From: [Collinsella] massiliensis
Lineage (GTDB): Bacteria > Actinomycetota > Coriobacteriia > Coriobacteriales > Coriobacteriaceae
Direction of reading: 5' to 3'
Length of the DNA stretch: 64,000 nucleotides
NCBI GenBank assembly: GCA_000333815.1
Contig: CAPI01000046.1
Span: 1-64,000 of the forward strand
Below the pieces are notes generated by a model. It did no database searches. It had not been told where the DNA came from and saw only the letters and a program-made list of their open reading frames with translations. Position numbers and translations under genes: made by a program. Of this stretch, positions 4,953 to 10,089 are shown in pieces (within the stretch, counting starts at the first letter, position 1; each line of letters begins with the position of its first letter).

Positions 4953-5717
4953 ATGGCAGCGACCATCGCCATCATCGGGGCGCTCGAGCAGGAGGTGCGC
5001 CACATCTACGACGCGCTCGGGGATCCCGCGTGGGAGGAGCGCGGCGGCCTGCGCATCGCGCGCGGCACGCTGGGCGGACGCGAGGTCGTGGCGACGGTGG
5101 CCGGCATGGGCACGGTGAACGTGGCCGCCGCGACGCAGCTGCTGCTGAGCGTGTACGACGCCGGCACCGTGATCTTCTCGGGTATCGCCGGCGGGCTCAA
5201 CCCGGCGCTCCACATCGACGACATCGTGATCGGCGAGCGGCTGCGCTACACAGACACCGATACTGCGCTCATCGCGGAGTCCGCGCCCGGGCTCGAGGAG
5301 TTCGCCTCCACGCCCGAGCTCGTCGACCTCGCCGAGCAGGTGCTCCGCGCCCGCGGCTACGCAGCCATCGAGGATGGCGGCCGGCGCCCGGTCGGCACGG
5401 GCAACGCAGCCGCTGAAGCCACCGCAGACACCCCTGCCTACCTGCGCGGAACCATCGCCACGGGCAATCGCTTCGTGACGGGCGATGCCCTTCGCGCTGC
5501 CGTGGTCGCGGAGACGGCGGCGGACTGCGCGGAGATGGAGGGCGCGGCCGTCGCGCACATCGCCGCGAAGAACGGCGCCGCCTGCCTCGTGCTGCGCGCC
5601 ATCTCGGACAACTGCGACGAGGCGTACGACGCGTTCTGCGAGCGCAGCTTCGACGTGGACGGCTACGCGCGCCGCGCGAGCGAGATCGTGCTCGACATCG
5701 CCGCGCAGCTCGACTGA
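4953..5717 (+). CDS. mtnN: 5'-methylthioadenosine/S-adenosylhomocysteine nucleosidase
   Basis: This 254-aa enzyme hydrolyses MTA and SAH to adenine plus the thioribose sugar, recycling SAM by-products. Family motifs are IIGALEQEV at the N-terminus, VIFSGIAGGL, ATGNRFVTGD, the purine/ribose-binding CAEMEGAAVAHIA, and the catalytic-aspartate region LRAISDNCDEA. A loop around residues 140-165 (GTGNAAAEATAD) is longer than in E. coli Pfs. GAAGGGG lies 5 bases before ATG 4953. A very long upstream extension exists in this frame but is antisense to the kinase gene. Confidence 0.92.
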   Translation: MAATIAIIGALEQEVRHIYDALGDPAWEERGGLRIARGTLGGREVVATVAGMGTVNVAAATQLLLSVYDAGTVIFSGIAGGLNPALHIDDIVIGERLRYTDTDTALIAESAPGLEEFASTPELVDLAEQVLRARGYAAIEDGGRRPVGTGNAAAEATADTPAYLRGTIATGNRFVTGDALRAAVVAETAADCAEMEGAAVAHIAAKNGAACLVLRAISDNCDEAYDAFCERSFDVDGYARRASEIVLDIAAQLD

Positions 5718-5764: not shown

Positions 5765-6355
5765 ATGGCCGATACCATCAACTACCAGCGCGCGCATTTC
5801 GTGGCGAGCTACGGCAAGGCATCGCAGATCCCGCCGTCCACCTGCCCGGAGGTGAGCTTCGTCGGCCGCTCGAACGTGGGCAAGTCCTCCATCATGAACA
5901 AGCTGTTCGGCCGTAAGGGTCTGGTGAAGGTCTCGAGCACGCCGGGCAAGACGAGCAACGTGAACTTCTTCGAGGCGGACGGCGTGCACTTCGTCGATCT
6001 GCCCGGGTACGGCTTCGCGCGCCGCTCCAAGGCCGAGCGCGACCGCTGGGCGCAGCTCATCGGCGACTTCTTCGACCTCGAGCGCAGCTTCAACCTGGTG
6101 GTCTCGCTCGTGGATATCCGCCACGATCCGAGTGCGCTCGACCATCAGATGATCGCGTTTTTGCAGGAAAGCGAGCTGCCGTTTGTGGTGGCGCTTACCA
6201 AGGCGGACAAGCTCAGCCGCGGCAAGCAGAACCAGCAGCTTGCAGCGATAAAACAACAGCTCAACGTGCCTGCGGAAGACATCATCGTGACGAGTTCCGA
6301 GACCGGGCAGGGTATCGACGAGCTCAAGCGCCGTATCGAGGCCGCTTGCCTGTAG
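5765..6355 (+). CDS. engB: Ribosome-assembly GTPase EngB/YsxC
   Basis: This 196-aa TrmE-Era-EngA-EngB-Septin GTPase is needed for large-subunit ribosome assembly. Nucleotide motifs are G1 GRSNVGKS, G2 STPGKT, G3 DLPGYG, G4 TKAD and G5 SSETGQG, all intact and in order. Length matches the family. GGGGACC lies shortly before ATG 5765, 47 bases after mtnN, so the two may be co-transcribed. A palindrome starts directly after its stop codon. Confidence 0.95.
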   Translation: MADTINYQRAHFVASYGKASQIPPSTCPEVSFVGRSNVGKSSIMNKLFGRKGLVKVSSTPGKTSNVNFFEADGVHFVDLPGYGFARRSKAERDRWAQLIGDFFDLERSFNLVVSLVDIRHDPSALDHQMIAFLQESELPFVVALTKADKLSRGKQNQQLAAIKQQLNVPAEDIIVTSSETGQGIDELKRRIEAACL

Positions 6356-6388
6356 TGATTATTTCAGTACCTGGTACTGAAATTATCA
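6356..6388. repeat. 33-bp dyad immediately after the engB stop
   Basis: TGATTATTTCAGTACC and its complement meet around a single central base, with 15 of 16 positions matching. It begins one base after the engB TAG. It could be an engB 3' hairpin, an operator upstream of the GntR gene, or a member of the stop-codon palindromes seen throughout the window. There is no T-run. Confidence 0.7.
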
Positions 6389-6486
6389 TTTGGGAAGCGC
6401 GGGCCTGCCGCCGGTTGAGGGCGTCCGCCCGCCGCATGGTGCGGTTGTGGTACGCTCGTAATGGCTGAAATGTACAGCCAAAGAGT

Positions 6487-6503
6487 CCAAATATACGGAC
6501 GTT
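6487..6503 (-). promoter_or_regulatory. Candidate GntR operator before gntR
   Basis: On the minus strand this reads ACGTCCGTATATTTG. It matches 12 of 15 positions of ATGTACGTATATTCG in the phosphoketolase promoter (about 7360-7374). Both sites flank the same GntR/UTRA regulator gene, suggesting autoregulation and control of xfp. A small inverted repeat GGCTG/CAGCC lies just upstream (about 6464-6480). Confidence 0.45.
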
Positions 6504-6515
6504 CAAGGGGAGCAC

Positions 6516-7250
6516 GTGGCCACACCATTGGATTTCAGCGGCAAGGAGCAACTGTACCGTCAGCTGTACGACATCCTGTTCCAAGACATCATCAGCGGCG
6601 TGTACGCCGTGGGCGACCTCATTCCATCGGAATCCGAGCTCATGGAGCAGTACGGCGTTTCGCGCGCGACGGCGCGGCGGGCGATGGAGATGCTCTCCGA
6701 TAACGGCATGATCAGCAAACGCCGCGGCATCGGGTCGGAGGTCATCGCGAGCCGCCCGAAGTCCGACCTCACCCACGTGACGAGTTTCTTGAAGAAAAGC
6801 AGCGACGACCGGGTCATCGCACAGAAACGCCTCGTCGACGCGGTGATCATTCCTGCAAGCGGTGAGATTGCCCAAGCGCTCCGCCTTGACGAGGGCGCGG
6901 ATGTGTACCGTCTGCGCCGCGTGCGCTATAGCGGGGAGCGCCCGCTGTACCTCGAGATCAACTACTTCGAGCGCGCGTTTCTGCCCGACGCCATCAACCG
7001 CGACTTCTCGCGCGAGTCGCTGCGCGCCTACATTAGCGATAAGCTGCATGTGCGCTGGCGCCAGGCCACGCAGGAGATTCACGCGATCGTGGCCGACGAG
7101 GAACTCGCCTATCTGCTGAAGATCGAGGTCGGGGAGCCGCTGCTCTTTAGTAAGCGCATCTCCTTCGACACGCAGGGCGTGCCGCGTGAGTTCGTGACGA
7201 CCTACTATCGAGCCGACCATTACCATATCGAGGTCGAGCTCGACGCATAG
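6516..7250 (+). CDS. GntR-family regulator with UTRA ligand domain
   Basis: This 244-aa regulator has an N-terminal GntR winged helix (LYRQLYDILFQDIISGVY, LIPSESELMEQYGVSRATAR) and a C-terminal UTRA domain (about 80-240; VYRLRRVRYSGERPLYLEIN). UTRA regulators usually bind sugar or amino-sugar phosphates. The GTG start at 6516 is preceded by AAGGGGA at 4-5 bases and the first residues match the family. It faces phosphoketolase in the same direction, and similar candidate operators lie before both genes. Control of xfp by a sugar-phosphate signal is the simplest reading but is inferred. Confidence 0.9.
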   Translation: MATPLDFSGKEQLYRQLYDILFQDIISGVYAVGDLIPSESELMEQYGVSRATARRAMEMLSDNGMISKRRGIGSEVIASRPKSDLTHVTSFLKKSSDDRVIAQKRLVDAVIIPASGEIAQALRLDEGADVYRLRRVRYSGERPLYLEINYFERAFLPDAINRDFSRESLRAYISDKLHVRWRQATQEIHAIVADEELAYLLKIEVGEPLLFSKRISFDTQGVPREFVTTYYRADHYHIEVELDA

Positions 7251-7353
7251 GAACGCGACGTTACTGGCAAGTGTTTCGCGCGCCGCGCATGCTCGTCAAA
7301 TTGCTTCTGTGCAACCCATTTCAGCTCCTTACCAAAACCTTGCAAATTCCCTC

Positions 7354-7381
7354 TAGTCAAATGTACGTATATTCGTATAAT
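7354..7381 (+). promoter_or_regulatory. xfp promoter with overlapping operator
   Basis: A perfect -10 TATAAT (7376-7381) follows a weak -35 TAGTCA (7354-7359) at 16 bases. The spacer contains GTACGTATATT (7363-7373), shared with the site before gntR, so bound repressor would block the polymerase. The transcript would start near 7388, about 32 bases before the ATG. Confidence 0.6.
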
Positions 7382-7419
7382 CAAACCGGTAACACAGTAT
7401 GCACGAGAAAGAGGTCGGT

Positions 7420-9966
7420 ATGGCTCAGCCTGTGATCGGAACGCCGTGGAAGAAACTGGGCGCGCCTGTGTCGGACGCCGCGCTCGAGGGCGTGGAGAAG
7501 TATTGGCGGTGCGCGAACTACCTTGCTGTCGGCCAGATCTATCTGCGCAGCAACCCGCTCATGCGCAAAGATTTCGTGGACGAGAAAACCGGCGAGGTGC
7601 GTGATTTCGGTCGCGCGGACGTGAAGCACCGCCTCGTGGGTCACTGGGGCACCACGCCGGGTATCAACTTCCTCATGGGACACACGAACCGTCTCATCGC
7701 CGATCACCAGCAGAACGCCATCTTCCTCATGGGTCCCGGCCACGGCGGCCCGGCGGGGACTGCCCAGAGCCTCCTCGACGGCACCTATCGCGAGCGCTAC
7801 CCCGAGATCACCGACGATGAGGCCGGACTGCAGACGTTCTTCCGCCGCTTCTCTTATCCCGGCGGTATCCCGAGCCACTTCGCGCCAGAGACGCCCGGTT
7901 CTATCCACGAGGGCGGCGAGCTGGGCTATACGCTCTCCCATGCTTACGGCGCGGTGCTCGACAACCCGAGCCTGCTTGCCGTGGCCGTGGTGGGCGACGG
8001 CGAGGCGGAGACCGGTCCCTTGGCTACGGGCTGGCAGGCGAACAAGCTCGTCAACCCGGCGACGGACGGCATCGTTCTGCCGATTCTCCACCTCAACGGC
8101 TACAAGATCGCGAACCCCACAATTCTCGCGCGCATCTCGGACGAGGAACTCGAGCAGTTCTTCCGCGGCATGGGTTATAACCCGCATGTGTTCGTTGCTG
8201 GCTTTGACGATGAGAGCCATGCCTCGATCCACCGCCGGTTCGCCGAGCTCCTGGAGCAGGTGTTCGACGAGATTTGTGACATCAAGGCATGTGCGCAGGC
8301 GCAGGTAGACGCCGGCGGTGAGGCGACGCGCCCCGTCTATCCCATGATCGTGTTCCGCACGCCCAAGGGCTGGACGTGCCCCAAGCACATCGACGGCAAG
8401 AAGACCGAGGATTCGTGGCGTGCGCACCAGGTGCCGCTTGCCTCGGCGAAGGACACGCGCGAGCACTTCCGCGTGCTGCGCGGCTGGCTGCGCTCCTACA
8501 CACCTGAGGAACTCTTCACGCCCGAGGGCCAAATCCGTCCCGAAGTGACCGCGTTCATGCCGGAAGGCGATCTGCGCCTGGGCGCGAACCCCAACGCTAA
8601 CGGTGGCACGGTGCGCCGAGAGCTCACGCTGCCAGACATCCACGCGCATGAGGTGCCGGTCGCCGAGCACGGCCACGGCTGGGGGCAGACCGAGGCGGCG
8701 CGCGTCTTCGGTGCCTACACGGCCGACGTGCTTGCACAGAATCTCGACGACTTCCGCATTTTTGGTCCGGACGAGACCGCTTCGAACCGCCTGCAGGCCG
8801 CCTACGACGTGACGCGTAAGCAGTGGGAGGGCGGCTTTTACGCGGACGAGGCCAACGACCAGCTCCTCGCCAGCCAGGGCAAGGTTATCGAGCAGTTGTC
8901 CGAGCATCAGTGCGAGGGCATGCTCGAGGCGTACGTGCTCACCGGCCGCCATGGCGTGTGGTCGAGCTACGAGAGCTTCATCCATGTGGTGGATTCCATG
9001 GTCAACCAGCACTGCAAGTGGCTCGAAGCGACCGTGCGCGAGATTCCGTGGCGCGCGCCCATCGCGGGGCTGAACATCCTGCTCTCGAGCCACTGCTGGC
9101 GCCAGGATCACAACGGGTTCTCGCACCAGGACCCTGGCTTCATCGACCTGTTGCTCAACAAGGCGAACGATACGCACGTGGTGAACGCCTACTACCCGGC
9201 GGATGCCAACATGGCTCTCGCGGTGGCGCAGCGCGTGTACCAGTCCACGAACTGCGTGAACGCCATCTTCTGCGGCAAGCAGCCTGCGCCGACGTTCAGC
9301 ACGGTGGACGAGGCCGTGGCGGAGCTCGACGAGGGGCTCGCCGTGTGGCGCTGGGCGTGTACAGCGGATTCGCTCGCCGATGCGGACCTGGTAGTGGCGA
9401 CCTGCGGCGACGTTCCCACGCTCGAAGCGCTTGCGGCGACTGACATGCTGCGCGAGCTCGGTGTCAAGGTATGGTTCGTGAACGTCGTCGATCTGCTCAA
9501 GATCCAGAACGCGAGCGAGAACGACCGCGCTATCAGCAATGAGCGCTTCGCTGAGTTCTTCGGCACGGGCGAGAAGCCGGTGCTCTTTTGCTTCCATGCC
9601 TATGCGGGCACTATCCGCCGCTTGGTGTGGGACCGTCCCGGCCACGATGCCTGGCGCGTGCATGGTTACGAGGAGAAAGGCTCCACGACCACACCGTTCG
9701 ACATGCTGCGCCTGAACAACATGGATCGCTGGGAGCTCGCGGCCGACGCGCTGCGCCTGGTGGGTGCCGTGCGCGGCGATGCGGACGTGTTCGCCGAGCA
9801 AATCTCGGCGTGGGAGGCGTTTCGTGAGGAGGCGTTCCAGTTCGCGGTTGACGAGGGATTCGATCACCCGGCGTTCACGGATTGGGTGTGGCCCGAGGCG
9901 GCGGAGCAGGGCGACGCCGACGGCGCGCTTTCCGCGACGCAGTTGACCGCCGGCGACAACGAATAG
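7420..9966 (+). CDS. xfp: Xylulose-5-phosphate/fructose-6-phosphate phosphoketolase
   Basis: This 848-aa thiamine-diphosphate enzyme splits xylulose-5-P or fructose-6-P with phosphate into acetyl-phosphate and a C3 or C4 sugar phosphate. The N-terminus [16 protein letters not shown], the TPP motif [11 protein letters not shown] with [18 protein letters not shown] and [19 protein letters not shown] are characteristic, and length matches the bifidobacterial enzyme. GAAAGAGG precedes ATG 7420 at 5 bases; the in-frame ATG at 7399 lacks an RBS and family homology. The last 36 codons and downstream hairpin are duplicated at 16386-16606. Confidence 0.96.
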
Positions 9967-10032: not shown

Positions 10033-10089
10033 CCAGAATGACTCATTTGGGGACGGGTGCGAAACGCGTCCCCAAATGAGTCATTCTGG
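10033..10089. repeat. Perfect palindrome, GGGGACGGGT family
   Basis: The arms CCAGAATGACTCATTTGGGG(A) and their exact complement are 21 bp each around a 15-nt centre. This is the most perfect copy of the GGGGACGGG family in the window. A second copy, decayed at its right end, sits at 16561-16606 as part of the duplicated xfp tail. Confidence 0.9.

Follow-up and report, generated by a model that had tools for sequence, protein, structure and literature searches.

Phosphoketolase determines what share of carbon enters the acetyl-phosphate route, and the question raised by this locus is which regulator governs its gene. The stretch analysed, referred to as the window, comprises 64,000 nt of contig CAPI01000046.1 of [Collinsella] massiliensis and contains gntR, encoding a transcription factor with a UTRA domain, followed by the phosphoketolase gene xfp (Table 1). 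An initial annotation had noted two 15-mers flanking the regulator, identical at 12 of 15 positions, and had placed the second between the −35 and −10 elements of xfp. Both 15-mers were found, ACGTCCGTATATTTG at 6488-6502 on the minus strand and ATGTACGTATATTCG at 7361-7375 on the plus strand, and the identity of 12/15 was obtained by count. Because each site is partly palindromic, they also align on one strand, as CAAATATACGGACGTTC (gntR site) and CAAATGTACGTATATTC (xfp site), with 13/17 identical positions by count. We consider it probable that GntR, a HutC-type repressor of a sugar operon since lost, retains a likely site at its own gene and a strong site in the xfp promoter, and that it blocks xfp until it is released by a phosphorylated sugar. 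The protein family, the sites, their recurrence at orthologous operons, the promoter geometry and the synteny are observed features of the locus and its relatives.

The two sites, AAATATACGGACGTT before gntR and AAATGTACGTATATT in the xfp promoter, are imperfectly palindromic and are laid out like the operators of HutC-type GntR proteins. Over 16 bases, the xfp site has two palindrome mismatches and the gntR site has four. A search with the consensus ATGTACGTATATTTG, allowing up to three mismatches, yielded three matches in the window, all at the gntR and xfp sites, compared with 0.15 expected; three matches were reached in 0 of 100 shuffles. The sole sigma-70-like promoter detected in 6330-7450 was TAGTCA/TATAAT with a 16-nt spacer, shuffles of the region averaging 0.5. 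The xfp site, operator 2, spans nearly the whole of this spacer, as had been proposed, and in addition the last base of the −35 element. The gntR site, operator 1, directly precedes the gntR Shine-Dalgarno sequence, and the promoter search found no −10 element beside it. Operator 1 is 14/15 identical to the aldolase-operon head site of a relative, G052, and may mediate autoregulation of gntR.

To place these sites in context, we compared the locus with those of relatives, in which G-numbers denote the 65 genomes of the family Coriobacteriaceae (G000 being the window's own) and L-numbers denote extracted loci. GntR orthologues were present in 9 of 98 relative genomes at E ≤ 1e-40 and in 9 of the 65 family genomes at E ≤ 1e-55, own genome included in each case. 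A scan of named genomes, of which the best 12 of 49 loci were used (L027-L038), added Enterococcus sp. 669A, Enterococcus florum, Atopobium sp. UBA2090 and the uncultured Coriobacteriaceae RUG11916. The GntR of the sister genome, G002, is 98% identical to that of the window, and the two Enterococcus orthologues are 52% identical. A tree of 18 GntR sequences joined the window and G002 proteins firmly and left the deeper branching order without resolution.

In seven other Coriobacteriaceae and both Enterococcus species, the orthologue lies at or near the end of a class II aldolase–phosphotransferase system (PTS) operon. The seven (G005, G007, G012, G022, G050, G052 and G056) share, before gntR, genes for a class II aldolase, PTS EIIA, EIIB and EIIC-GAT, a TPR protein and an AAA_33 kinase. 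G005, G007, G012 and G022 additionally contain a PfkB kinase gene, and G052 and G056 have a DeoC domain before gntR and a transaldolase after it. These domains were called on the G022 and G052 proteins, the other genomes being assigned by similarity. The Enterococcus operons keep the aldolase and carry a mannose-type PTS with two dehydrogenases, and their kinase gene follows gntR; one regulator and operator accompany two PTS families, EIIC-GAT in Coriobacteriaceae and the mannose type in Enterococcus (L033, L034). The Atopobium locus (L031) ends inside the aldolase gene.

All nine operons are headed by AAATRTACGTAYATT or a close form of it, which in each case precedes the class II aldolase gene. 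In most HutC-subfamily sites, GT and AC are 4 nt apart (excerpts of PMC4494728); GT-ACGT-AC at the G022 and G005 operon heads fits this spacing, and several sites have A for G. On inspection by eye, the operon heads of G005, G007, G012, G022, G050 and both Enterococcus species show a GATAAT, GATAAC or GATATT hexamer beginning 17 nt from the site start, and those of G052 and G056 show one at 18 nt. A scripted −10 call matched this in G005, G052 and G056 but elsewhere chose another hexamer, in G007 TATTAT, 19 nt from the site start, and at the other five heads (G012, G022, G050 and the two Enterococcus operons) TATGAT, 14 nt from it, such that the −10 positions at the operon heads are a reading rather than a measurement. 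The TATAAT of xfp starts 17 nt after the site start, as the GATAAT-type hexamers do (17-18 nt) at the nine heads. A GntR paralogue of 49% identity in G012 and G022 (L025, L026, L036, L037) lies beside an operon for an alcohol dehydrogenase and a mannose PTS; this operon has a site of its own, AAACATACGTATATT, ahead of the alcohol dehydrogenase gene.

Because orthologues carry the motif at the heads of their own operons, it is very probably the operator of the window GntR. The xfp site is likely recognised by the adjacent GntR; recognition of the gntR site is probable, the case being weaker than for xfp. Repression of xfp by GntR is likely because of the geometry of the site within the promoter.

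To evaluate the sites quantitatively, we scored the window with operator matrices. With a 5-site matrix, derived from four orthologue operons and one paralogue outside the window, the xfp site ranked first (27.0) and the gntR site second (21.4), the next non-overlapping place reaching 10.6. A 7-site matrix, with all sites from outside the window genus, gave 28.0 and 21.3, respectively, whereas 200 Markov-generated 64 kb sequences did not exceed 18.7; the training sites, scored when left out, reached 19.4-28.1. On 26 xfp loci without gntR (139,116 bases), this matrix did not exceed 14.4, but in G022 (L078) it gave 17.0 at a position 3′ of xfp. The training sites had been located using a window-derived pattern, and the 5- and 7-site tests are accordingly partly circular. 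We therefore repeated the search without window data, taking from each of six lineages (G005, G007, G022, G050, G052 and Enterococcus 669A) the 250 nt that precede the aldolase gene. The best-shared 16-mer fell in the palindrome, with 71 of 80 matches to the five others, compared with 57 for the best of 100 shuffled sets. The de novo matrix (six sites, one base off centre) scored the xfp site at 18.1, clearly first in the window. Scored apart from the de novo test, a candidate site before the G052 transaldolase reached 7.7. A look-alike in G005, ACATATACGGACGTCC (L029, 5485-5500, at the end of the pfkB coding region; score 10.8), resembles the window gntR site and was treated as a coding coincidence.

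We also searched the 65 family genomes with the pattern AAAYRTACGKAYRTT, drawn with G000, G002, G005, G012, G022 and Enterococcus in view and independent of G007 and G050. Ten of its 11 exact matches occurred in six of the nine regulator-bearing genomes, two of the ten being at the paralogue; the other three genomes have a 1-mismatch site upstream of gntR. In each of the nine orthologue genomes, a site with at most one mismatch was found either at gntR/xfp or, on the gntR contig, no more than 6 kb upstream of that gene. A genome-wide regulon in the window's own genome was rejected, as ≤2 mismatches gave 8 matches compared with 12 for the reversed pattern. Apart from those in the window, the only strong site found in this genome was C103:12932, three further places having been left unscored.

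By domain make-up, the window GntR belongs to the HutC subfamily: it comprises an N-terminal winged helix (PF00392, 1e-18, residues 13-76) and a C-terminal UTRA domain (PF07702, 5e-37, residues 103-237). The 24 NCBIfam models that it matched all scored below their curated cut-offs (HutC 141/220 bits, PhnF 124/157, TreR 112/212, LSA1692 123/275, all equivalogs). In a search with an 11-member GntR alignment, the nearest solved structure was NagR/YvoA, followed by 2ra5 and DasR. In NagR, phosphate is held by Arg133, Arg135, Ser165 and Thr90, and the operator is read by Arg38, Arg48 and Gly69 (excerpts of PMC4333415). Residue correspondences were counted by hand on the alignment: R135, R137 and S168 of the window GntR align with Arg133, Arg135 and Ser165 of NagR, and R50 and G71 align with Arg48 and Gly69. 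R135, S168, R50 and G71 are invariant in 11/11 aligned sequences; R137 is His in both paralogues. The window GntR resembles two GntR/HutC repressors that act on amino-sugar genes, NagR (YvoA) of Bacillus subtilis and DasR of Streptomyces, in the GntR and UTRA domains, the dyad operator, the two phosphate-holding arginines, Arg48 and Gly69, and differs from them in its candidate target, phosphoketolase. A sugar-phosphate signal is plausible for the window protein.

In the proposed mechanism, a GntR dimer would bind the palindrome AAATRTACGKAYRTT. In the relatives, GntR most likely represses the catabolic operon (class II aldolase, PTS, kinases) from the head site just upstream of the −10 element. 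In the window lineage, the sugar genes are gone, and the sites left to the repressor would be a likely one at its own 5′ end and, in the xfp promoter, a strong one. There, GntR would block RNA polymerase, and a phosphorylated sugar would release it. We infer binding, repression and release by a sugar phosphate from sequence.

To determine how far the link to xfp extends, we examined the gene across the family. It was present in 35 of the 65 genomes, counting the best copy in each; genera g5 and g6 have second copies, 50-57% identical, which no count includes. A site upstream of xfp was present in G000 and G002. At 26 other xfp loci, no site was found on the gene strand within 400 bases (≤2 mismatches), and the xfp regions of the 5 remaining genomes likewise had none (both strands, ≤3 mismatches). 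A same-strand LacI gene was present in the 1.5 kb upstream of xfp at 23 of the 26 other loci, and a LacI-type site (≤4 mismatches, 400 bases) before xfp at 25 of them; G013 had neither at xfp (L104), nor within 1.9 kb (L175). The 5 remaining genomes had a LacI gene in four cases and a LacI-type site in one. In total, a LacI gene and/or LacI-type site was found upstream of xfp in 30 of 31 other xfp genomes versus 0 of the 4 gntR-linked loci (G000, G002, G012 and G022). In these four genomes, the best LacI match was 29-33% identical (30% in G000) and no LacI-type site was found at ≤2 mismatches, G002 being 86% complete. Before most other Coriobacteriaceae xfp genes stand one or two TGATAAAACGTTTTAKCA-like sites and/or a LacI gene (L080-L105, L149-L151, L170-L174), and the LacI protein presumably binds these sites. 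In G037, looser LacI-type sites occur near transketolase-like and pyruvate-kinase-like genes, named by eye (L155, L156), which suggests a wider central-carbon LacI regulon.

The GntR–xfp link is narrow among relatives. The idea that gntR and xfp share a GntR operator is partly supported: orthologue operon heads carry the motif, but as a general rule upstream of xfp it lacks support. In phylogenetic footprinting there, suggested in the initial annotation, the site proved to be kept only in the sister G002, but not in G012 and G022 despite their gntR–xfp order, and G007 has the GntR orthologue but its xfp lies elsewhere, beside a LacI gene.

Several results count against control of xfp by the adjacent GntR. 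G012 and G022 keep gntR before xfp without a site in the xfp promoter, the aligned stretch scoring −1.1, and conservation of the xfp site rests on one close sister, G002. The RUG11916 locus (L038, a 48% relative) yielded no site at ≤2 mismatches, only a weak one of 8.8, 75 nt before the aldolase gene. With the de novo matrix, the gntR site took second place at 13.4, hardly above the next place at 13.3; by itself, this matrix would not reject chance for the gntR site. One exact AAAYRTACGKAYRTT match lies in G044, a genome without the regulator, and ≤1-mismatch matches occur in 27 of 56 regulator-free genomes versus 41 of 56 for the reversed control. As 1-mismatch matches are no commoner than in the control, the pattern discriminates only by exactness and position. 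In the protein, Thr90 of NagR is replaced by L92 (hand count), and Arg38, which reads G at position −5 of the NagR operator, by S40, leaving two of the three DNA contacts; the latter loss fits the T, instead of G, at −5 of the window operator. Finally, C103:12932 outscores operator 1 and heads a PTS cluster that holds another GntR.

This third site, TAATATACGTCTATTA (L157, 12932-12947; score 22.9), precedes a minus-strand cluster of mannose-type PTS and aldolase genes; further along that strand lies a GntR gene whose product is 31% identical to the window protein. It is either the operator of the C103 paralogue or a further target of the window GntR, and owing to this ambiguity, cross-talk at xfp is possible. 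The own genome contains 15 matches to the window GntR (E ≤ 0.001, self included), and the xfp site could be read mainly by another paralogue, such as that of C103, or by two, the adjacent gntR not encoding the main regulator. We regard this as unlikely, as the window GntR adjoins both sites and its orthologues bear the same palindrome at their operon heads. It is less probable still that operator 2, in an AT-rich promoter, has decayed or shows a merely neutral resemblance, with gntR and xfp neighbours by history and xfp outside GntR control. G012 and G022, which retain the neighbourhood and a TTATTCGTATAAT core without the palindrome, would accord with such a resemblance. However, chance was rejected for the xfp site by its score of 28.0 versus ≤18.7 in the 200 random 64 kb sequences and by its first rank with the window-free matrix, and operator 2 lies inside a block identical between G000 and G002, other intergenic parts differing. 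That GntR activates xfp instead of repressing it is the least credible alternative, as the site lies inside the −35/−10 spacer, from which activation would be unusual.

The gene order is mtnN–engB–operator–aldolase…PfkB–gntR–xfp in G012 and G022, engB–operon–gntR in G005, where xfp was not found at the threshold used, and mtnN–engB–site–gntR–xfp in the window. From site start to gntR start, the distance is about 5.4 kb in G022 versus 27 bases in the window. In the window's own genome, no close aldolase was found (best 44%), and the only EIIC relative (39%) lies elsewhere. The shared flanks, mtnN–engB and gntR–xfp, suggest, as the simplest reading, that the window lineage lost by deletion the seven sugar genes that lay between engB and gntR. 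In a tree of 30 XFP sequences, the four gntR-linked proteins formed one clade (100/100), which stands apart from other xfp in the genus of G012 and G022. This tree would be explained if xfp had joined gntR only once, with transfer or differential loss. In G001, G003 and G004, of the window genus, gntR and xfp were not found at the thresholds used and engB is kept, G001 being 76% complete. The xfp site may have been gained in the window lineage or lost in G012/G022. Tentatively, and with slightly less than even confidence, we propose that the repressor outlived its sugar operon and was kept for central energy metabolism. In this scenario, xfp became a neighbour of the operon and ceased to be under LacI control, the seven genes were removed by deletion, and the xfp promoter acquired a GntR operator. 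Phosphoketolase flux would then answer to a sugar phosphate no longer drawn from the original pathway.

Other regulators have been linked to phosphoketolase genes elsewhere. In Bifidobacterium, AraQ and MalR1 exert LacI-type control of the bifid shunt (excerpts of PMC6882875). They are likewise dedicated transcription factors over phosphoketolase-pathway genes but belong to the LacI family, whereas the window has GntR and the four gntR-linked loci lack a LacI gene or LacI-type site. Similarly, in the LacI–xfp loci of other Coriobacteriaceae, the regulator gene is local and lies upstream of xfp, and a palindrome stands close to the promoter; there LacI is paired with TGATAAAACGTTTTAKCA, in the window GntR with AAATRTACGKAYRTT. 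In lactobacilli, CcpA/cre imposes sugar-dependent repression on the phosphoketolase gene xpk (excerpts of PMC3146418); CcpA is a global catabolite regulator, whereas the window GntR is a predicted local HutC repressor. Among the papers listed by searches of one full-text collection, no title or abstract opening described a GntR over xfp in Coriobacteriaceae. A local HutC repressor is a well-known kind, and the interest lies in the target and in the change of regulator family. Should the proposal hold, one enzyme is governed in related species by repressors from two unrelated families, and one lineage exemplifies how a central gene can capture a pathway repressor after loss of the pathway. The analysis further defines the operator of a HutC group that lacks a named model, in Coriobacteriaceae and Enterococcus.

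Table 1. Features of the gntR–xfp locus in the window.
Feature	Position	Strand	Basis or remark
Phosphorylase-superfamily protein, mtnN-like; left flank common to G012 and G022	4953..5717	+	Domains
engB-like GTPase, left neighbour; in G005, G012 and G022 it stands left of the complete sugar operon	5765..6355	+	ORF, domains
Inverted repeat 3′ of engB, terminator-like, weak T tail	6361..6383	+	2 terminator-like in region versus 0.7 expected
Operator 1 (putative), AAATATACGGACGTTC, 11 nt before gntR start codon, adjoins Shine-Dalgarno	6489..6504		Score 21.3, de novo 13.4
gntR Shine-Dalgarno, likely (AAGGGGAG)	6505..6512	+	Predicted by eye
gntR, HutC-subfamily transcription factor, 244 aa, GTG start	6516..7250	+	ORF; Pfam GntR 1e-18, UTRA 5e-37
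xfp −35, likely (TAGTCA)	7354..7359	+	Promoter search
Operator 2 (putative), AAATGTACGTATATTC, in xfp −35/−10 spacer	7359..7374		Top window site with three matrices
xfp −10 (TATAAT), 17 nt after first base of operator 2	7376..7381	+	Promoter search
xfp, xylulose-5-phosphate/fructose-6-phosphate phosphoketolase	7420..9966	+	XFP_N, XFP and XFP_C domains

The xfp start at 7420 (MAQPVIG), after AGAAAGAGG, is likelier than the opening of the ORF (open reading frame) at 7399. A half-site, AAATGTAC at 6468, was rejected, the G002 sequence differing there. Between xfp and a BglG-type regulator, a long inverted repeat, CCAGAATGACTCATTTGGGGACG ... CGTCCCCAAATGAGTCATTCTGG, was identified by eye at 10033-10089; it is perhaps a small mobile element or a strong hairpin.
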